Of a stretch of DNA of 26,576 bases, positions 789 to 15,860 are shown piece after piece. Made by a program: the position numbers and the translations under genes. The stretch covers positions 1 to 26,576 of the IMG/VR virus record IMGVR_UViG_3300017706_001502. One strand, given 5' to 3'. Origin of the DNA: a virus. The notes under the pieces were generated by a model. That model saw nothing but the letters and a program-made list of their open reading frames with translations, had not been told where the DNA came from and searched no databases. Every line of letters begins with the position of its first letter. Position 1 is the stretch's first letter.

Positions 789-938
789 ATGAAAGAAAAT
801 ACAGATAATATGCCATTAGTTTATAAGAAGTTATTTGAGACGCTTGACGACATCAAGAAGCTTACAGATAGCATTGAAGAAAAAGTAGATAGGTTAGTAG
901 AAAAATCCTATCAAAATAAAAAAAACAGGAGTAAATAA
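789..938 (+). CDS. Small charged coiled-coil peptide upstream of portal
   Basis: A 49-residue ORF whose stop codon TAA (936-938) overlaps the ATG of the portal gene (938-940). That stop/start arrangement is typical of translational coupling and is the main argument that it is real. The product is helical and charged, with hydrophobic residues spaced as in a coiled coil (LFETLDDIKKLTDSIEEKV), and a very basic C-terminus (NKKNRSK). The upstream SD is weak (AAGTGAG). Its function is unknown. It could be a small head accessory protein, or a leader peptide that serves mainly to couple translation into the portal gene. Confidence 0.5.
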   Translation: MKENTDNMPLVYKKLFETLDDIKKLTDSIEEKVDRLVEKSYQNKKNRSK

Positions 939-3373
939 TGCCTTGGTATGATAGATTTTTGCCAAATAAGAGTGAGGACAGCACTTTAGCTAAGAGTGTT
1001 GAGCCTTTAACGCTTGGGGATGATGCTCCTGACGAACATATCATTGAAGTAATAGCAAAAGAAGCTAAATATAGAGATATAGACCCATACGACCACGCAA
1101 ACTCACGTATGATGAGTAGTTATAGCGGAAGCGGTAAGAAATATTACTTCGAAGAGCAACAAACTGATAACTTAAATCAGGGTGCTCTTATTAATATGTC
1201 TAAGCACCATTTAATTTCTTCAATTATAGGAAGTAGAATAAACCAGTGTGCAGAGTTTGGACAATATTCTCCTGATGAAGACTTAGGATATAAAATAGTT
1301 TTAAAAGACGAACACGCAGAAATGACTGATGATGATAAGAAAAATATCGTTGCTATTAATCAGTTTCTACAAAACTGTGGCACATCAGTTATTGACTATG
1401 AGCTTACTTTCGAAAGTTTTATTAGACAAATTATTAGAGATAGTTTAGTATTCGACAAAGCTTGTTTTGAAATAGTTAAAAATAGAAAAGGTCAAATAAC
1501 TGGATTTATGCCGGTTGATGCGACAACTATTAAAAAAGCTCCTCTAACAGAAGATGAAATAGAAAGCGGACGTAAAGACCCTACTGGTATTAGGTATATA
1601 CAGGTAATAAACAATAAAGTTGTTGCTGAGTATAAACAGGATGAACTCTGTTATGGTATTAGACGTCCTCGCACTGATATTAGACGTAAAGGTTTAGGAC
1701 ATAGTGAGTTAGAAGAGTTATACGGAATTTTAAATAACTTATTTAATGCAGAAACATACAATGCTGCAAACTTTACAAACGGTATTAATGCTAACGGTAT
1801 TATCGCAGTTAAGTCTAAAATGGCTCCACAACTATTTAGAAGTTTTAGACGTGAGTTTTATCAAATGCTTAATGGTGTAGGTAATGCTAAACGAACTCCT
1901 CTTATACAGTTAGACCCAGATGAGAAAGAAGATATTTCATCAATTAACCTTCAGCCTTCTAACCGTGAGATGGAATACAATGTATGGATAAATTACTTAA
2001 TAAAAGTAGCTTGTGGTGTTTATCAGATTGACCCAGCAGAAATAGGATTTGTTTTTGGTAGTGAAACACAAAACTCATCTTTATTCGGAACAGACCCATC
2101 TGCGCGCGTTCTAATGGGTAAAGAAAAAGGTTTGCGTCCTTTAGTTAGGTCATTACAGTCGTGGATAAACAGATATATTATCGACCAAGTTGATGACAGA
2201 TATAAAATAGTATTTACAGGACTTGATAGTGTTTCTCTAATGGATAAAATGAAGTTAGAAGAGCACAAGATGAAGTATATGACCTTAAACGAAATAAGAA
2301 CTATACACGACTTACCAGAAATGGAAGATGGTGATATACTTGCAGCAGCTTATACAGCAATTAAGACTGCAGTTATTAGAGAACACGGTATCCTTGTTGC
2401 TGAAGAAGTAGGTAAGGATGATATTAGTAGCGATTTAGAAGAAGCTGTAGAAGTAGAGCACGATAAAGAGTTAGAATTAGACGGTGAGGATGTTTCTCGT
2501 CCTGATGTTTCTGTTGAGAAAGCTAAAGTTGATATAGATGGGGATGGACAAGAACATCCTGCACAATACTTCGAAGGTTTAGATGAAGAAACTAAACGTA
2601 AGCGCGAAGCAGAGATAGAAAGACGTAAGCAACATTTTAAAGAGACAGGTGAGCAAATCTATGGAGAGCTACCTGGCGACGATATGGATAAAAAAAAACA
2701 GAAACAAAATAAAGGGACTAAGTCTAAGAAAGCTGATGAAGTAAGAGAAGAGATAAAGAAGCCCGGTAAAGATGAATTCATTAGAGCTGCAAGTAAAGTA
2801 TCCGGCGTTTCTAAGAAAATTATAGAAGAAGTCTATGATAAAGGTTTAGCAGCATATGCAACAGGACATAGACCGGGTCAAACTCCACAATCTTGGGCAC
2901 GTGCAAGAGTTTATGCATTCTTATTTGACAGTAAGAGTGGTGCTCGTAAAGCTGATAATTCTTTATGGGAAGAACATTTAGAAAGTAAAAAAGCCTTATC
3001 AGTTGCAGAAACTAAAGAAGTTTTTGTAGAAGGTTTAGTTAAGTCTGATACATATATACCTACTCAAGCTATTGCAGATAATGCACAGAAAGCTCTTGAT
3101 GCTAAAGAAGAACATAATTTAGACTATGGAACTCCTGTAGGATGGAAAAGAGCACGTCAGTTAGCTAATAGAGAAGGTGTATCTATAGAAACAGTTAAAA
3201 GAATGAAGAGTTTCTTAGCAAGACACGAAAAGAATAAAGATATCCCTGAAGGTAAGGAATATAAGGACGATGCTGGCGCAGTAATGTGGGATGCGTGGGG
3301 AGGCTCAGAGGCTGTCAAATGGAGTAATGATATTGTAGATAAATATAACAAAGAGAAAGAAGAGGACAAGTAA
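938..3373 (+). CDS. Portal protein with C-terminal DUF5824-like extension
   Basis: 811 residues; SD CAGGAG lies 8 nt before the ATG. The portal forms the dodecameric ring at the head vertex through which DNA is packaged and ejected. Residues about 80-480 look like a phage portal: DSLVFDKACFEIVKNRKGQITGF near 168-190, VDATTIKKAP near 193-202, a stem/wing segment near 250-330, and VYQIDPAEIGF near 361-371. From about 500 the chain becomes an acidic/basic linker that includes DIDGDGQEH (532-540, a DxDxDG calcium-loop pattern) and a Lys/Gln stretch near 584-600. Two compact modules follow: about 608-690 with GHRPGQTPQSWARARVYAF, which I recognise as DUF5824-like, and about 720-805 with GTPVGWKRARQLA, RMKSFLARHE and AWGGSEAVKW, a small module seen in other phage head proteins. 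Typical portals are shorter (roughly 400-600), so the tail is unusual. The portal call is strong; the roles of the extra domains are unknown. Confidence 0.85.
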   Translation: MPWYDRFLPNKSEDSTLAKSVEPLTLGDDAPDEHIIEVIAKEAKYRDIDPYDHANSRMMSSYSGSGKKYYFEEQQTDNLNQGALINMSKHHLISSIIGSRINQCAEFGQYSPDEDLGYKIVLKDEHAEMTDDDKKNIVAINQFLQNCGTSVIDYELTFESFIRQIIRDSLVFDKACFEIVKNRKGQITGFMPVDATTIKKAPLTEDEIESGRKDPTGIRYIQVINNKVVAEYKQDELCYGIRRPRTDIRRKGLGHSELEELYGILNNLFNAETYNAANFTNGINANGIIAVKSKMAPQLFRSFRREFYQMLNGVGNAKRTPLIQLDPDEKEDISSINLQPSNREMEYNVWINYLIKVACGVYQIDPAEIGFVFGSETQNSSLFGTDPSARVLMGKEKGLRPLVRSLQSWINRYIIDQVDDRYKIVFTGLDSVSLMDKMKLEEHKMKYMTLNEIRTIHDLPEMEDGDILAAAYTAIKTAVIREHGILVAEEVGKDDISSDLEEAVEVEHDKELELDGEDVSRPDVSVEKAKVDIDGDGQEHPAQYFEGLDEETKRKREAEIERRKQHFKETGEQIYGELPGDDMDKKKQKQNKGTKSKKADEVREEIKKPGKDEFIRAASKVSGVSKKIIEEVYDKGLAAYATGHRPGQTPQSWARARVYAFLFDSKSGARKADNSLWEEHLESKKALSVAETKEVFVEGLVKSDTYIPTQAIADNAQKALDAKEEHNLDYGTPVGWKRARQLANREGVSIETVKRMKSFLARHEKNKDIPEGKEYKDDAGAVMWDAWGGSEAVKWSNDIVDKYNKEKEEDK

Positions 3374-6351: not shown

Positions 6352-7851
6352 ATGTTGCCAAATATCAATGAAAACGTTACAATTAACGAACTTACCCGCC
6401 TAAATGATGCTCTTCAAAAGAACAGCCAAGTAGGTTATCAAAGAGAAGAAGGAGGACTTGACCTTCGAGGACCACTTTCACCCATTATGCCTCAGAGCAT
6501 TGAAGGAACTTTAGCATCAGCTGCTCACACTATGCGTGATTTAGCTCTATGGCCAATGCTACCTAAAGTCCAAGCTACTAACACCATCCACGAGTATGCT
6601 GTTATTGAAAGCCACGGCGAGGACTTAGACCCATTCATCTCTGAAGGTGGTGGCGATAGTTTTTTCGGTTCTTCTACTTCTCAGTATAGCCGTAAATCTG
6701 TTAAAATCAAGTATATGGCAGAGAAAAGAAGCATTTCTGATGTTTCTACTCTTGTAGGTATCGTAGGACAAAACGCTGACGCACTTGCTCTTGAGACTGA
6801 GCGCGGAACAATGAGCCTTCTTCGTAAAATGGAAGTTCAGTGCTTCTATGGTGATGAAGATGTAAATCCTCTTTCTTTCGACGGTGTTATGAAACAAATC
6901 GAGCGTGATTTAGACACAGACCGCAACCCTTACCAATTCGGACCTGGCTTCTCAGAAAATCAAGAAGACCTCGAAGGTGCAGCACTTACCGGCTCTAAGC
7001 TTCACGAAATTCTTGGAGAGCTTTATAGCGCTCCTCGTTTCGGTGCTCCTGATGCAATCTTTATGTCTCCACGTCAGTATAGCAAATTAATTGCTGATAG
7101 TGCTGCAAATGGACGTCACGACTCAATGGTTCTTGTAAATCAAGGCGACCAAGGTGTTCATACTTTAGGTGCTGGACCTCGTATCCACATTATGGGACCT
7201 ATGGGACCAGTTCCTGTTGTTGCTGCGCCATTTATCAGTCGTCGTCTTAAGGCACCTTCAGTTGCTTCTGCAGGCAATGATATGAATGCTCCTGTTATCG
7301 CTGCATCAGGCGTTGATACTGCTGCTGATTTCTTACTTGCAGATGCTGACCACGGCACAGAGAATGGCTGGGGCGCAGTAGGCGTAGGCGACCACCAAGG
7401 TGATTTCCGTTATGTCTTAGTTCCAGTAAGTAAGTTGGGTTATGGAGCTCCTGTAGTTTCTGGCGCACTTACAGCTCATAATGACGCTATTCCTAAGCTT
7501 CAGCTTGCTGCTCTTAATAACTGCAAATACGTTCGCGTATATCGTGCAAAAATTGGTGCTGCTGCAACTGCTGCTCAAGTTATTAAAGCTGCTGAGCTTA
7601 TCGGTGAAGTTCGTGCTGATGAGATTATCGGCAAAGACTGGTATGATGCTGGATTTGAGAGACAAGCTTGTGATAGCGTATTAATTTCACAAATGGACCA
7701 AAACACTGTTGAGTTTGCACGTCTTCTTGACTTTATCAGAAGACCTCTTGCTGAGGTAGGCGCTGCTAAGCAATTCCTATTGATGCTCTTCGGTGCTCCT
7801 TCAGTTAAGGTCCCTCGTAAGAACTTCGTGCTTCGCAACGTTAAGGGATAA
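6352..7851 (+). CDS. Major capsid protein (HK97-fold) with Ig/FN3-like insertion
   Basis: 499 residues, SD AAGGAGA, directly after the scaffold-like gene and followed by a terminator, as expected for a very highly expressed gene. The N-terminal part is a typical shell protein: residues about 66-135 (LWPMLPKVQATNTIHEYAVIES, then VKIKYMAEKRSISDVSTLVG) and 139-160 (GQNADALALETERGTMSLLRKMEV) correspond to the E-loop and spine-helix regions of HK97-like capsids. Residues 225-300 (GAPDAIFMSPRQYSKLIADS, PFISRRL) belong to the P/A-domain core. Residues about 312-437 read as an Ig/FN3-like insert: DFRYVLVPVSKLGYGAP, then CKYVRVYRAK and ELIGEVRAD. The shell fold resumes at 440-499 (LLDFIRRPLAEVGAAKQFLLMLFGAPSVKVPRKNFVLRNV). 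Cleavage by the upstream protease would be expected near the N-terminus; the site is not obvious. Confidence 0.85.
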   Translation: MLPNINENVTINELTRLNDALQKNSQVGYQREEGGLDLRGPLSPIMPQSIEGTLASAAHTMRDLALWPMLPKVQATNTIHEYAVIESHGEDLDPFISEGGGDSFFGSSTSQYSRKSVKIKYMAEKRSISDVSTLVGIVGQNADALALETERGTMSLLRKMEVQCFYGDEDVNPLSFDGVMKQIERDLDTDRNPYQFGPGFSENQEDLEGAALTGSKLHEILGELYSAPRFGAPDAIFMSPRQYSKLIADSAANGRHDSMVLVNQGDQGVHTLGAGPRIHIMGPMGPVPVVAAPFISRRLKAPSVASAGNDMNAPVIAASGVDTAADFLLADADHGTENGWGAVGVGDHQGDFRYVLVPVSKLGYGAPVVSGALTAHNDAIPKLQLAALNNCKYVRVYRAKIGAAATAAQVIKAAELIGEVRADEIIGKDWYDAGFERQACDSVLISQMDQNTVEFARLLDFIRRPLAEVGAAKQFLLMLFGAPSVKVPRKNFVLRNVKG

Positions 7852-10482: not shown

Positions 10483-12180
10483 ATGCCATCATCAATTACA
10501 TTTAGAGGCACAAGACTTTTCGAACCAAGTGTTGTCGTCGATGTTGTAAATACTCTCGATACAACAGGACAACTTGGCGCAAAAAATCTTTGTGTAGTGG
10601 GAGACTTTCCCATTCTCAAACCTGCGACAGCCTATAAATTCGGTAGTGGAGGTTTTGACCTCACTGAAGTTTATCCAATGGATGCAAAGCTTCTAACACT
10701 CGATAAAATTTATAAGTCTGCACTATCAAACGCAAGTGGTATCGCAAGAAGTATCACATACGTTAGTGCTAACCAAAGCTCTGCTGCATCTTTTGCATTA
10801 AACAACGCATCAGCAGCACTTGCACTAACATTAAGCAGCACATACTACGGAGGTCAAGGCAACAACTTACGTTTGCAACTTGATGACCCTTCTACATTGC
10901 CTGCTGAATTGTCTGCAAACGCAGACTATTATAAACTAACAATTAGAGCACCGTGGCAAGACCAAGATGGAGTATTCCTCATCGATGGTAGCAACCACTT
11001 ACAGCTTACTCTTGCAGATGGAGACGCTATTGCAGTTTCTGGAGCAGGCGTTTTCACATACACACCAAGCGGACAAGCTGCACAAAACTTTACATTATCA
11101 GACTACTCACGTATGGATGAGTTTGTTGCAGTATTACCTGCAGCTTTAGCTCCTCTTGCGCTATCATTCTCAGACCCAGCTAAGCTTGACGTTATGAGCT
11201 TTACTAATGGCACAGGTGGTAGTATTAATAAGGTATTGCACGCACATACTGCAAAACTCATTGAGACTATTGAAGCTTTCGCTGATTTACCTTTTGAGGC
11301 AACTTTAGCAGGTGGATATGAAATACTTAATGACTTTGCATTAGCTGGTCCTTCTTCTGCAGGCGCAGACGGTGGAGCTCCATCAGATGCAAATTATACT
11401 ACAGCATTAGAAACAGTAGAAACATCTGATATATCAACCATTACTATTCTTTCTCAAGATGCAGACCATCATATTCTTCTTAAGTCGCATATTGATGCTG
11501 CAGAACTATTAGGTAGAGAAAGAAACGGATATGTAGGCGGCACAGCAGGGACTACACTTGCTAACCTTTATACAGGCTTTGTATTACCTCTTAATGATGA
11601 AAGACTATCAGTTTGTGGCCAAAGCATTACTTTTGCAGACCATAAAGGCGCAAGAAGAAGTGAAGGACCTGAGTATTTAGCATATTACTTAATGTGTGCT
11701 CAAGGTGCATTACCTCCTGCAGAGCCTCTAACTCGTAAAGCTCTTAACATTTTTGATACAACTCAAGGATGGAGTAGAGAACGTGATAGTAATAGTGTTG
11801 CACAAAAGAGTGTTATCGCTGTTAAATTAGGACCAAGTAATGATTTAGAGGTAGTAAGGTCTTTAACTTCATATAGAAAAGATAACTTATCAGTAAATAC
11901 TGAAGTTTCTTGCCGTGAAAGTATTGACATATGTTCTAAAGAACTTCGTAAATTCTTAACTTCTGAGTTAGGCTCACGTATTACAAATACAACTGTTGAT
12001 AGAGTTAAAACTCTTGCTAAAAGCCGTTTATCTGATTTGCGTGAATTAGGTGCTATCCAGGACTTTAAAAACATTGCGGTTAGAAGAACCGGCGATACAG
12101 TTTTTATAGACTTTGATGTTGCACTTATTGAGCCACTCAACTTCATTCGCATTACAGCTAACATTGTAGCTGGACAATAA
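10483..12180 (+). CDS. Contractile tail sheath protein
   Basis: 565 residues, SD TAAGGAGA. The sheath surrounds the tail tube and contracts on infection. The N-terminus begins with a short beta segment (ITFRGTRLFEPSVVVDVVNT) of the kind that carries the extended arm linking neighbouring subunits. Residues about 95-260 form an outer, variable Ala/Ser-rich domain (ASAALALTLSSTYYGGQGNNLRLQLDD). The conserved C-terminal domain includes VVRSLTSYRKDNLSV (near 459-473), SCRESIDICSKELRKFLTSELG, VKTLAKSRLSDLRELGAIQDF and IDFDVALIEPLNFIRITANIVAGQ at the end. This last block is the classic sheath C-terminal strand region. The tube gene follows after 12 nt, the universal sheath-tube order in myoviruses. 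The call is firm. Confidence 0.85.
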   Translation: MPSSITFRGTRLFEPSVVVDVVNTLDTTGQLGAKNLCVVGDFPILKPATAYKFGSGGFDLTEVYPMDAKLLTLDKIYKSALSNASGIARSITYVSANQSSAASFALNNASAALALTLSSTYYGGQGNNLRLQLDDPSTLPAELSANADYYKLTIRAPWQDQDGVFLIDGSNHLQLTLADGDAIAVSGAGVFTYTPSGQAAQNFTLSDYSRMDEFVAVLPAALAPLALSFSDPAKLDVMSFTNGTGGSINKVLHAHTAKLIETIEAFADLPFEATLAGGYEILNDFALAGPSSAGADGGAPSDANYTTALETVETSDISTITILSQDADHHILLKSHIDAAELLGRERNGYVGGTAGTTLANLYTGFVLPLNDERLSVCGQSITFADHKGARRSEGPEYLAYYLMCAQGALPPAEPLTRKALNIFDTTQGWSRERDSNSVAQKSVIAVKLGPSNDLEVVRSLTSYRKDNLSVNTEVSCRESIDICSKELRKFLTSELGSRITNTTVDRVKTLAKSRLSDLRELGAIQDFKNIAVRRTGDTVFIDFDVALIEPLNFIRITANIVAGQ

Positions 12181-12192
12181 AGGAGATAAACA

Positions 12193-12714
12193 ATGGCAAA
12201 TATAATTACAGGCGCAAAAGCTATAGTTAAAATTGACGGTAAAGTTGCTGGGTATGCTACTGGTATATCAATACAAGAAAGCCAGCTTAATGGTCGTGTT
12301 GAGAGTTTAGGTTTTATCGATAGTCGTGAAATTACACCTATTTCTCGTATCGTCACCGCAACAATAAACTTTATTAGAATTTTTAAGACTAATGATAGAA
12401 ATGGCCTCTCTGCTGACGAAGCTGATGAAGGTAGTATGATTACAACAGAGCAAACTCCTGATGGTGAAAACCCTACAGCTGAAGTTAGAACTAACAATGC
12501 TCTTACAAGTCGTCCATTTGACTTAGAACTTTATGACAGTGCTGCAGAAGCTGCACAAGAAGGCGAACTTCAAGATGGTGATAAAAAGATTTACACTGTT
12601 GTAGGATGTCGTCCATCATCACAAAGTATTGTTGTTGATAGAGGCAGTCTAATGGGTGTGCAGGTATCTGTTGATGCACTATATCTTATCAGACACCCTG
12701 ATGGTTTAGAGTAA
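12193..12714 (+). CDS. Tail tube protein
   Basis: 173 residues, SD AAAGGAGAT, immediately after the sheath gene. The tube forms the rigid inner conduit for DNA. The N-terminus (ANIITGAKAIVKIDGKVAGYATGISIQES) is the characteristic strand-turn-strand start of phage tube proteins, in which the early K-I-D-G-K/V-x-G-Y hairpin is followed by a segment such as GFIDSREITPISRIVTATINFIRI. A low-complexity acidic loop (SADEADEGSMITTEQTPDGENPTAEV) occupies about residues 73-99. The C-terminal part (YTVVGCRPSSQSIVVDRGSLMGVQVSVDALYLIR) is the closing beta region. A terminator follows, so this ends the neck-sheath-tube unit. Confidence 0.8.
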   Translation: MANIITGAKAIVKIDGKVAGYATGISIQESQLNGRVESLGFIDSREITPISRIVTATINFIRIFKTNDRNGLSADEADEGSMITTEQTPDGENPTAEVRTNNALTSRPFDLELYDSAAEAAQEGELQDGDKKIYTVVGCRPSSQSIVVDRGSLMGVQVSVDALYLIRHPDGLE

Positions 12715-12779: not shown

Positions 12780-12836
12780 AAGTCGTTTCTTTTACTGCGC
12801 ATCATACGGTGTCTTAAGAGAAGCGACTTTTTTTTA
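12780..12836 (+). terminator. Rho-independent terminator after the tail tube gene
   Basis: AAGTCGTTTCTTTTA (12780-12794) pairs along all 15 positions with TAAGAGAAGCGACTT (12815-12829), with two G-T wobbles and a 20-nt loop. An eight-base T-tract follows (12828-12835). It lies 66 nt after the tube stop codon. Confidence 0.85.
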
Positions 12837-12844
12837 TTTAAAAA

Positions 12845-12961
12845 ACGACATCTAAATATTGCTTAGACTTAATTTTATTTTATTTGTTTAAGTGATGCTT
12901 AACATTTTGTAAAACTCTTTTAAAGTATTTATATAAAAACGCAACTTAACATATAATTAAG
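12845..12961 (+). promoter_or_regulatory. Putative promoter/leader module of the chaperone-to-fibre unit
   Basis: ACGACATCTAAATAT (12845-12859) follows the terminator and matches 5613-5627 with one mismatch. ATATAAAAACGCA (12931-12943) and CTTAACATATAA (12945-12956) match blocks at 7976-7986 and 8001-8012. The last box is flanked by CTTAA and TTAAG, a 5-bp inverted repeat. Taking TATAAT (12952-12957) as a -10 box gives a start near 12964 and a leader of about 28 nt with the SD AAGGGAG correctly placed. No -35 consensus is visible. The rest of the 12715-12992 gap is AT-rich and shows no gene. Confidence 0.4.
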
Positions 12962-12992: not shown

Positions 12993-13484
12993 ATGGATTT
13001 AGTAAAACTTAAAGAACAGTCAGATGCAGCTTTAGAAGAAAGCCCAAGTATCGTAGAAATAAAAAAGAAGAAGAAAACAAAGTCAATAACAAAAGAAGAT
13101 GATACCTTTGAGCCTCGCAAGAAAGAAATACCTTTAGAATATTTACTTGATGACGGTAGTATTAAGAAATGCAAACTCATCTCTAAAGTTATGGACAGTA
13201 AAGCGCGCTTAGAATACGAAAGAGTATTATCAGCACTCTCTGATGGAGTTTATTTTGATAGACTACCTTATGAAACAAAAAACAGACATCTATGTATTGC
13301 TCGTATTGTTTGTCAGTTAGATACACCTCCATCTTGGGTATTAGAAGCTGCAGGGGAGGACTTAGAGTTTTGTTTTGAATTAGGAGGGAGGCTTCTTCAG
13401 CACGAAGGCGCATTTTTTCGAAACAGTGATACCCAGGACGAAGGCGCAGAGAGCAAACCCCGCTTTCGTTTTAGTGAGAAATAA
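12993..13484 (+). CDS. Tail assembly chaperone, short form (gpG-like)
   Basis: 163 residues, SD AAGGGAG. The N-terminus is basic and disordered (IVEIKKKKKTKSITKEDD, about 21-38). Residues about 48-140 are a compact helical domain (MDSKARLEYERVLSAL, LCIARIVCQLDTPPSWVLEAAGEDLEFCFELGGRLL). The gene lies between the tail tube and tape measure genes, where contractile and long-tailed phages place the pair of tail assembly chaperones that coat the tape measure and help tube polymerisation. The second reading frame begins inside this gene with no good SD of its own, the usual arrangement for a frameshifted long form. The function is inferred from position and architecture; the sequence itself is not diagnostic. 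Confidence 0.65.
   Translation: MDLVKLKEQSDAALEESPSIVEIKKKKKTKSITKEDDTFEPRKKEIPLEYLLDDGSIKKCKLISKVMDSKARLEYERVLSALSDGVYFDRLPYETKNRHLCIARIVCQLDTPPSWVLEAAGEDLEFCFELGGRLLQHEGAFFRNSDTQDEGAESKPRFRFSEK
13382..13421 (+). other. Candidate +1 programmed ribosomal frameshift region
   Basis: The zero frame (start 12993) and the downstream frame (to 13803) differ by +1 (equivalently -2). The downstream frame is open only after a TAG at 13381-13383, so the shift must occur at 13384-13484. Candidate A: the strong internal SD AGGAGGGAGG (13382-13391), then CTT, then CTT-C (13395-13398). This repeats the layout of the bacterial prfB site (SD, 3 nt, CTT, slip to TTx). Candidate B: TTT-TTT-CGA (13413-13421), where Phe-tRNA could slip from TTT to TTC before an Arg codon that looks uncommon here. 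A run of CCCC near 13458 is a third option. Either A or B gives a 269-residue product. Confidence 0.5.
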
Positions 13485-13803
13485 ATTAGAAAGTTCTCCT
13501 TTGCCGGTATTAGACACTGAAGAAATAACTTGTTGGGAGAATTTAGAGTTCTCACTTCTTTCTTTAGAGACAGAGCAATTTAATATACTTTACAAAGACT
13601 TTAATAATAAAAGTAAAGAAAACGTTAGAAAGAAACAGATTATCAAACTTAAAACTCCAGACAAAACAGAATTTGACGAAAAAATTGATATTGACAGTAT
13701 CAAGGATGAAATCATCGCTGATAAGGCTATATTCGAAATGGAGAAGGCGTTTGCTGAAGGTGATAACTCATCACTCATTGATATGCTTAAAAAATACCAG
13801 TAG
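13426..13803 (+). CDS. Tail assembly chaperone C-terminal extension (gpGT-like), probably made by frameshift
   Basis: This frame is open from 13384 to the TAG at 13801. Its first possible start is a GTG at 13426 with no properly spaced SD, so independent initiation is unlikely and fusion to the upstream chaperone by a +1 shift is the better model. The encoded extension is about 125 residues: a basic start (PRTKAQRANPAFVLVRNKL), then an acidic and basic helical region (LEFSLLSLETEQFNILYKDFNNKSKENVRKKQ, and IDIDSIKDEIIADKAIFEMEKAFAEGD). In other phages such extensions bind the tape measure protein. The tape measure gene follows 11 nt later, and its SD overlaps this stop codon, so the three are closely coupled. 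Confidence 0.6.
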   Translation: MIPRTKAQRANPAFVLVRNKLESSPLPVLDTEEITCWENLEFSLLSLETEQFNILYKDFNNKSKENVRKKQIIKLKTPDKTEFDEKIDIDSIKDEIIADKAIFEMEKAFAEGDNSSLIDMLKKYQ

Positions 13804-13814
13804 GAGAATAACTT

Positions 13815-15860
13815 ATGATACCATTACTCGGAGGAGCAGGACCAAATAACGCAGCTCCACAAGGCGCCTTAGATGCACTATCAGCTTTTGGTCAAAACGG
13901 CCCAAAGATGCCAGACTTTAGTGGCAATCAGTTTGGTGGCCAGAATAATATGGATGCTGCAGGACAAACAAATCCTTTCTCTATGAGTGGCGCTGCAGGA
14001 GCTGCTGCTTCTAAACTACCTAATATGGGCAACCGAGGTGGCCGAGGTGGTGGAGGTATGGCTGGTTTAAGTGGTTCAATAAATAAACTTATTGCCTCAA
14101 ATAATAAATTAGTTGCTGCTATTAACAAATTAGCTGCATCAATGGGTGGAGCCGGTGGCGGTGGTGGAGGAGGCAGAGGCAGAGGCTTTGGCGGCGGAGG
14201 CGGAGGTGCAGGACCTGATAATGATGATGCTTTCCAGCAAAGAAGCTTGCAGAACAAGCCCGGAGCAACTGGAGGCTTCCCAGGTGGAGGTCGTCTCGGT
14301 GGTATAATGCGCGGTGGTGCGGCTCGGGTAGGTTCTGATTTTGCTGGGTCTTTGGATGACGTAAAAACCGGAGCTTCACAGTTAGTGGCTGCTGGGTCTT
14401 TACATCAAGCTGGCAACTTACTTTCTGCTTTAAAAGTCCCCGGTGCATCTTCACTATATTCAGCAGCTCGATTTACAGCTAAAATGGCAAGAGCAAATTT
14501 ATCAAAAGGTGTAGGTAGTGGTCAAGGGACGAGTTTAGGAGCAATAGTATCAACATTACCTGGTGGCTTTGGCGCAAAAACTGCACAACATATAGGCGTT
14601 TTAGGAGCGAGAAGAGACCAATTATTAGGACAAGAATACGGCGCATTTAAAACAGCAGCATCTATGGGTATGCAGTTTAATGGTGCTGGCAACTTTATGA
14701 ACCAAATAATTGATGGCACATCTATTCGACAACTCGGCTCTGAGTTCGGTTTAGGACCAAATGCTGCAATGGATAATGTAATGGATGTTGCAACAAGTGG
14801 AGGTTTTAGAGCTACTCCAGGTGGTGTGAGCGTTAGAGGTGAGCAAAGTATGAGTTTAGATGCTATGTTTAACTTTAAAGGAGTAGGCTTCGGTTCTACA
14901 GTAATGGGTAATATACAAGAGTTAAGTAGAAGAGGTGCAGGCACAAGTGGCTTATTGACTGGTGAAAATTTAGCAGCATTTGGAGCCGGCGCCGGTTTAG
15001 GTGCAAGAGGTATGAATAGACTAACTTCAGCAGTAAGCGCATTTGCAGAGCAAGGTAGTATGTTTGGTTTATCATCTGGAGCAACCGGTAGATTGTTTAG
15101 AGAAGCTTTAGGGTTTGAAGATGGATTAAACACACCACTTTCATTTCAAGGCCACGGTAATGCATTTAATAGAAGTTTTATGACACATCAAAACCTATAT
15201 CAGCAAACTACGGGTAAAGTCAGTGGTATGTTTAGCGATATGAGTGATAATATAGGCTTTGCATTCGATGTAAGGGCAGCAAGAGAAAAACTTGGGCCTA
15301 ATGCAGGCGGCGTTCAAATAATGAGAGAAGCCAATAAAATGGCAAGAAACAGAACACCTCAACAAAAAGTAGCTCAAATGAGAGCAGCAGGTATGTCTGA
15401 GGATGTTATACAAGCAAGATTGTTAGGCGCTAATTTAGATGATGACCAGATAACTTTTGCAATGTCTGATAGTTTCTCAGATGGTCAAACCACTATAGCA
15501 AATAACATTGCAACAGGTAATGCAGATGCTACTGCTTCACGTAAGGGAGCAAAAAACTTAAAACTATCAAGAGCAACTGCACAAAAAGAGTTTGAAGAAA
15601 GTCAAAAAGGTTTTGCAAGGTCAAAGACTTTAGTTAAGTTAATACAGTCAGAGCAAAAATTAGAAAGAACTATATTCGAAAATTCTAAATTCACAGCTAA
15701 AACGGGCGACCAAATAGTTGCTCTCGCTGAGAGGTTTGAAAAAAATGGCAAGACACTTAGTGAAGGTATAAAAGCAACTAATAAATTAATAGATGCTATA
15801 AATGCATTAATAAAGACTGTGCCTAACCTAAGAAATAGAACGCCTATAGATAAGATTTAA
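13815..15860 (+). CDS. Probable tail tape measure protein (Gly-rich)
   Basis: 681 residues; SD AGGAG partly overlaps the stop of the preceding frame. It is assigned as the tape measure by position directly after the chaperone pair and before the hub. Residues 1-70 are Gly/Asn/Ala-rich. About 72-135 is an almost pure Gly/Arg low-complexity tract interrupted by one short helix (INKLIASNNKLVAAINKLAAS). The middle (about 180-480) is Gly/Ala/Phe-rich with repeated small helices. The C-terminus (about 560-681) is a charged helix with coiled-coil character (FEESQKGFARSKTLVKLIQSEQKLERTIFEN and KTLSEGIKATNKLIDAINALIKTV). Using the usual 0.15 nm per residue, a tube of about 100 nm would be expected. 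Long poly-Gly tracts are unusual for tape measures, which are normally mostly helical, so the call is probable rather than certain. Confidence 0.6.
   Translation: MIPLLGGAGPNNAAPQGALDALSAFGQNGPKMPDFSGNQFGGQNNMDAAGQTNPFSMSGAAGAAASKLPNMGNRGGRGGGGMAGLSGSINKLIASNNKLVAAINKLAASMGGAGGGGGGGRGRGFGGGGGGAGPDNDDAFQQRSLQNKPGATGGFPGGGRLGGIMRGGAARVGSDFAGSLDDVKTGASQLVAAGSLHQAGNLLSALKVPGASSLYSAARFTAKMARANLSKGVGSGQGTSLGAIVSTLPGGFGAKTAQHIGVLGARRDQLLGQEYGAFKTAASMGMQFNGAGNFMNQIIDGTSIRQLGSEFGLGPNAAMDNVMDVATSGGFRATPGGVSVRGEQSMSLDAMFNFKGVGFGSTVMGNIQELSRRGAGTSGLLTGENLAAFGAGAGLGARGMNRLTSAVSAFAEQGSMFGLSSGATGRLFREALGFEDGLNTPLSFQGHGNAFNRSFMTHQNLYQQTTGKVSGMFSDMSDNIGFAFDVRAAREKLGPNAGGVQIMREANKMARNRTPQQKVAQMRAAGMSEDVIQARLLGANLDDDQITFAMSDSFSDGQTTIANNIATGNADATASRKGAKNLKLSRATAQKEFEESQKGFARSKTLVKLIQSEQKLERTIFENSKFTAKTGDQIVALAERFEKNGKTLSEGIKATNKLIDAINALIKTVPNLRNRTPIDKI

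Follow-up and report, generated by a model that had tools for sequence, protein, structure and literature searches.

The phage represented by the stretch of DNA analyzed here (the window: 26,576 nucleotides, positions 1 to 26,576 of the 26.6-kb IMG/VR virus record IMGVR_UViG_3300017706_001502) very probably makes two versions of its tail assembly chaperone by a skip at UUU-CGA. The short form of 163 aa is encoded by open reading frame (ORF) 1 (12993..13484, + strand), which lies between the tail tube and tape-measure candidates. A second frame, ORF2 (13384..13803, + strand), overlaps its end. From the comparison of sequences it is highly likely that a +1 slip at TTT_CGA (13416..13421, + strand) joins ORF1 and ORF2 in this SPO1-related phage to give a two-form chaperone. 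The same type of site is kept, as judged from predicted junctions, in almost every SPO1-related phage tail that could be examined.

A preliminary description of this DNA had placed ORF2 in the +1 frame with respect to ORF1, open after a TAG at 13381..13383 (+ strand), and these coordinates hold. Because this TAG closes the +1 frame, any shift must fall downstream of it. Homologous and related phage loci, labeled here with L-numbers, were taken from IMG/VR, where searches with ORF1 returned 8 and then 12 contigs; L034 and L035, which are more distant, were added by a search with ORF2. Blastn and tblastn comparisons of the chaperone with annotated phages gave no match, and scans of genome contigs for homologues found none. 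The +1 overlap is kept in all 12 contigs homologous to ORF1 and in the two found with ORF2. It measures 95-101 nucleotides (nt) in the aligned homologue set, and the distance from slip to stop is 75-78 nt in L034/L035. Relative to the slip codon, the upstream stop of the +1 frame is located at -35 in the nine closest relatives and at -20/-23 in L034/L035, in which the stretch allowed before the slip is as short as 20-23 nt. The overlap of ORF1 and ORF2 is real, conserved and far beyond chance. As in the gpG/gpGT arrangement, two overlapping ORFs remain out of frame between tail tube and tape measure across the homologues.

Position and predicted fold identify ORF1 as a tail assembly chaperone. 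ORF1 had no match in PHROG and Pfam. Its AlphaFold model (predicted local distance difference test, pLDDT, 77) matched Herelleviridae tail assembly chaperones of LpeD, LP65, 521B and JL in BFVD (E 1e-4 to 8e-3), and the HK97 chaperone 2ob9 ranked second in PDB at a non-significant level. Among the annotated ORF1s used in the profile comparison, 9/15 match PHROG 'tail assembly chaperone' families. The sheath protein of the window is 21-30% identical to those of the Herelleviridae/SPO1 group over 20-55% of its length, and the chaperone similarity is remote.

Position of the frame change

Comparison of the homologues establishes the overlap, the position of the frame change and the conservation of UUU_CG. 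TTT_CG[A/C] is invariant in 11/11 diverged homologues. No other slippery tetramer is shared by the whole set of homologues, all of which keep TTT followed by CGA or, in L007 and L035, by CGC. The coding signal in frame 1 was assessed in seven diverged sequences by reshuffling synonymous codons while the frame-0 amino acids were kept fixed. Frame-1 similarity reached z 9.1 in the 54 nt after the site and z 6.3 in the first 27 of them, but in the 33 nt upstream it was no better than that of the shuffles (z 0.8). The signal begins at 13417, and the first conserved residues, F-[EDA]-T, correspond to the slip codon and the next two codons. Within the close group, frame 0 shows raised synonymous conservation only 3' of TTTCGA (p 0.003), which therefore reflects two overlapping proteins. 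By these alignments the frame changes at the UUU of UUU_CGN. The frame-1 signal and the conserved TTT_CGA thus support the programmed +1 frameshift between the chaperone frames that had been proposed in the preliminary description, and of the two sites named there it is the second that the homologues conserve.

The other Phe-Arg pairs of the window are written TTT AGA (14 times), TTC AGA (twice) and TTC CGT (once). Its only TTT_CGN pairs, at 13416 and 13464, are both inside the overlap, and CGA accounts for 5% of its Arg codons. The pair at 13464..13469 (+ strand), an in-frame TTT_CGT from which a slip would enter the same +1 frame, is present only in the closest relatives and might be an auxiliary or tandem slip site; L018-L020 and L034/L035 carry TTT_TCN at this position. 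No conserved RNA structure 3' of the slip site was found among the homologues compared; a hairpin in the window from 13435 on (z -1.7) is not conserved in them. The Shine-Dalgarno (SD)-like tract 22 nt upstream of the slip site is not conserved in distant homologues, and Rfam and tRNA scans produced no hits. A short upstream hairpin (CTTC/GAAG, CTC/GAG) that seemed to covary by eye was set aside, as it would lie within the ribosome.

The following account of the P-site mechanism, of how often slipping occurs and of what the two products do is inferred. Most ribosomes would translate ORF1 up to its stop at 13484 and produce the short form. A minority would stall at CGA (13419-13421), an Arg codon that the window seldom uses. 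In TTT TTT CGA (13413-13421) the second TTT is the one relevant for slipping, and with CGA in the A site the peptidyl-tRNA-Phe would move by +1 from UUU (13416-13418) to UUC (13417-13419), which fits the GAA anticodon better. Reading would then continue in the +1 frame with GAA-ACA-GTG and on to 13803. The 142 residues before the slip and the 127 aa of the C-terminal extension (13420-13800) would add up to a long form of 269 aa, the length predicted in the preliminary description, with the junction ...HEGAFFETVIPR... and the predicted junction peptide LLQHEGAFFETVIPR. On the model of lambda gpG/gpGT, the tape measure would be coated by the N domain that both forms share, and the C extension would serve to bring in tube subunits.

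Several points weigh against this interpretation. The support for the frameshift is comparative throughout, and a conserved stimulator was sought at the site and not found. The A-site codon may be CGC or CGT, which are common in some hosts, and it is CAR in three phages; this makes the rare codon pause uncertain. The profile of ORF2 has no detectable similarity to the SPO1-type extension profile, and homology of the C domains is therefore unproven. The ORF1 profile gives a match of modest strength to annotated chaperones (hhalign E 2e-4, probability 45%).

Distribution and known counterparts

UUU_CGN is likely to be an ancient and near-universal +1 chaperone signal in SPO1-related and allied myoviruses of Firmicutes, Proteobacteria and Thermus, in which bacterial ribosomes would use the slip site of influenza and plant viruses with no evident stimulator. 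IMG/VR was searched with sheath profiles to avoid selecting on the chaperone. Of 69 sheath-selected loci that were scanned, 10 ended too soon, leaving 59 testable; near-duplicates occur among them, so that counts refer to loci and not to independent lineages. TTT_CGN is located at the chaperone junction in 50/59 loci, in 45 at once and in 5 after inserted genes. Two loci (L101, L093) have a UUU_CAG junction, three (L119, L121, L122) a -1 shift on A runs, and four (L089, L116, L117, L118) were not classed by site. The three loci with a -1 shift are phage-G-like relatives, and the lineage switched shift direction at least once. Extra genes between the tube and chaperone genes were observed in several GC-rich phages (L085, L086, L088, L091, L097 and L098). 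A pattern search for sites saw only those containing TTTC, and the unbiased counts are those of the sheath-selected survey. It gave 72 distinct pairs, from which 10 second or false sites were removed by hand (seven second sites such as that at 13464, as well as L091:3101, L068:1737 and L066:6026). CGN follows in 59 of the resulting 62 distinct curated sites.

All 14/14 named sheath-related records harbor an in-frame TTT_CGN inside a +1 chaperone overlap. This set spans SPO1, Lysinibacillus, Lactobacillus, Exiguobacterium, Brochothrix and Thermus hosts or phages as well as phages of Aeromonas, Pseudomonas, Bordetella, Yersinia, Enterobacter and Morganella. Among named phages, the site is carried by SPO1, LysYB1, LpeD, A9, EalM132, Lalka27a, ST4, Dolphis, PHB04, fHe-Yen8-01 and Mecenats66, and it also occurs in Listeria LP-125, Enterococcus EF24C, Aerococcus AVP, Lactobacillus Semele and Lb338-1, and Staphylococcus K. 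The complete influenza PA-X nonamer, UCC_UUU_CGU, is present in SPO1, Lysinibacillus LysYB1 and Staphylococcus K; the predicted SPO1 junction reads ...YHSFVNQVNPEK. In GC-rich phages TTT makes up 0.2-0.5% of codons, yet it is present at the slip position. Moonbeam (L064), which has an annotated slip, shows UUU_CAA at the junction. As Moonbeam, L101 and L093 keep the C but not the Arg codon, UUU_C may be the core requirement.

The slip hexamer is of the same class as that of influenza A PA-X (UCC_UUU_CGU) and of the plant amalgaviruses, whose motif is UUU_CGN (PMC5052127): UUU slips to UUC in the P site, an Arg CGN occupies the A site, and a stimulator is not evident, as noted for PA-X (PMC5009743). 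For PA-X it is documented that UUU to UUC re-pairing is favored by the single Phe anticodon GAA, as is the effect of changing UUU_CGU to UUC_AGA, and the +1 slip was proven by mass spectrometry (PMC3498833). However, these are RNA viruses that use eukaryotic ribosomes and carry the motif in unrelated genes, whereas the window belongs to a DNA phage and bacterial ribosomes. SPO1 gp10.2/gp11.1 and the Moonbeam chaperones share with the window the order sheath, tube, chaperone and tape measure, a +1 overlap and a UUU_C junction, but the C extension of the window cannot be aligned with theirs, its overlap is longer (about 100 nt) and its sheath is only remotely related. A two-form chaperone produced by a low-efficiency frameshift 5' of the tape-measure gene is also known from lambda gpG/gpGT and most tail chaperones, Bacillus phage G and Pakpunavirus Adele (GTTTTT). 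In these systems the shift is -1 on a heptamer or on A/T runs, in contrast to +1 in the window. The tsh genes of Listeria phages PSA, A118 and A500 (CCC_UGA) resemble the window in using +1 shifts in phage structural genes, but they have a proline codon before a stop and concern tail shaft and capsid proteins instead of a chaperone.

The SPO1 record already lists a +1 shift in the chaperone, and the phage K record carries the label 'frameshift protein'. No link of UUU_CGN to phages was found in the literature searched; the 2009 SPO1 genome paper was outside that search, and priority is uncertain. In that literature UUU_CGN is known only from eukaryotic RNA viruses, and it appears to be fixed in a major phage lineage, among whose members are much-studied phages and phages for therapy (SPO1, K, Listeria P100-like). 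Such phages would provide a simple bacterial system to study why the site slips without a stimulator. The motif also supplies a forward-shift signal of the kind that the PRFect authors called lacking (PMC10885494). It further corrects annotation: for the majority of the named relatives that were inspected, the record gives the extension as a separate hypothetical gene or lacks it.

Alternative explanations of the overlap

The preliminary description had favored a prfB-like site at 13382..13398 (+ strand). Both of its motifs, AGGAGGGAGG-CTT-CTT-C and TTT-TTT-CGA, are present where it had located them. In a prfB-type shift, AGGAGGGAGG (13382-13391) would pair with the anti-SD and CUU would slip to UUC within CTT CTT C (13392-13398), where the codon at 13398 is CAG. 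The +1 direction and a superficially similar SD and CTT are shared with bacterial prfB, and the window and the relatives nearest to it have the element at prfB spacing. The resemblance is striking from one sequence because the close group is nearly identical from AGGAGGGAGGCTTCTTC to TTTTTTCGAAAC. However, L018-L021, L034 and L035 lack the CTT-CTT-C element, and distant homologues read TTG CTC GAC, TTG CTC GAT, TTG CTT GAC, CTT GTA GAA or TTA GTG GAG at this position. In L034/L035 a +1-frame stop, TAG, falls on or after it, so that a shift there would terminate. The frame-1 protein signal is absent between the element and TTT_CGA, and synonymous conservation of the stretch is not elevated (p = 0.09). 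Outside the close relatives of the window the SD-like tract has no CTT_C partner at 3-nt spacing; SD, 3-nt spacer and CUU slip codon are thus not conserved. prfB depends on an A-site UGA and on an SD at 3-nt spacing, and neither is conserved in the homologues of the window. This site, lost in diverged relatives and free of synonymous constraint, was judged not to be the shift site, and a prfB-type shift is highly improbable. The preliminary description had also said that a prfB-type SD in a tail chaperone would be unusual. This needs qualifying, as annotations of +1 shifts in the chaperone exist for SPO1-like phages. In the literature the Moonbeam +1 chaperone shift is called unusual (PMC4299906).

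Internal initiation in the overlap, yielding ORF2 as a protein of its own beside or instead of the fusion, is quite unlikely. In 5/11 relatives (L016, L018, L019, L020 and L034) a frame-1 ATG is located 14 nt before the slip codon, in four of them with an AGGAGG-like tract 10 nt upstream. This ATG is formed by a conserved His codon and is a possible extra start of ORF2. However, this position reads ACG in the window (13402), L010, L011, L015, L017 and L035, and the frame-1 GTG at 13426 is not conserved and lacks an SD. The earlier statement that the extension has no SD of its own therefore stands for this GTG but not for the frame-1 ACG at 13402, which has an SD-like tract 10 nt upstream. In LP-125, EF24C, K, A9 and L120 the overlap is only about 14 nt, and the stretch from the +1-frame stop to TTT_CG is free of start codons; thus an internal start in the overlap cannot exist there. 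A -2 shift, or transcriptional slippage on the T6 run at 13413-13418, would lead to the same frame, since +1 equals -2. TTTTTT is present in the window and phage Mu uses a -2 shift (PMC3498833), but homologues have TTCTTT or TACTTT, and hence neither a T run nor -2 re-pairing. TCC, CGA or ACG precedes TTT in most named phages, and this route is scarcely conceivable.

Neighboring genes and signals

The window also harbors genes for the portal (938-3373), the capsid (6352-7851), the tail sheath (10483..12180, + strand; phrog_279, E 3.8e-31) and a baseplate J protein. The tail tube candidate (12193..12714, + strand) follows 3' of the sheath gene, matches phrog_3776, for which no function is given, and has a counterpart at the same place in relatives. 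A 15-bp hairpin with T8 behind it (-22.9 kcal/mol, z -5) forms a probable intrinsic terminator between the tube and chaperone genes (12780..12836, + strand). A promoter-like match is found at 12928-12957 upstream of ORF1. Together they suggest that the chaperone may be transcribed as a unit of its own, as in the phage K records, which have terminators on both sides of the tube gene. Genes from 13815 on are long and lie at the tape-measure position. The first of them (13815-15860) has a Gly-rich start at 13928-14257 that gives a low-complexity N-terminus, with a long, unlikely antisense ORF.
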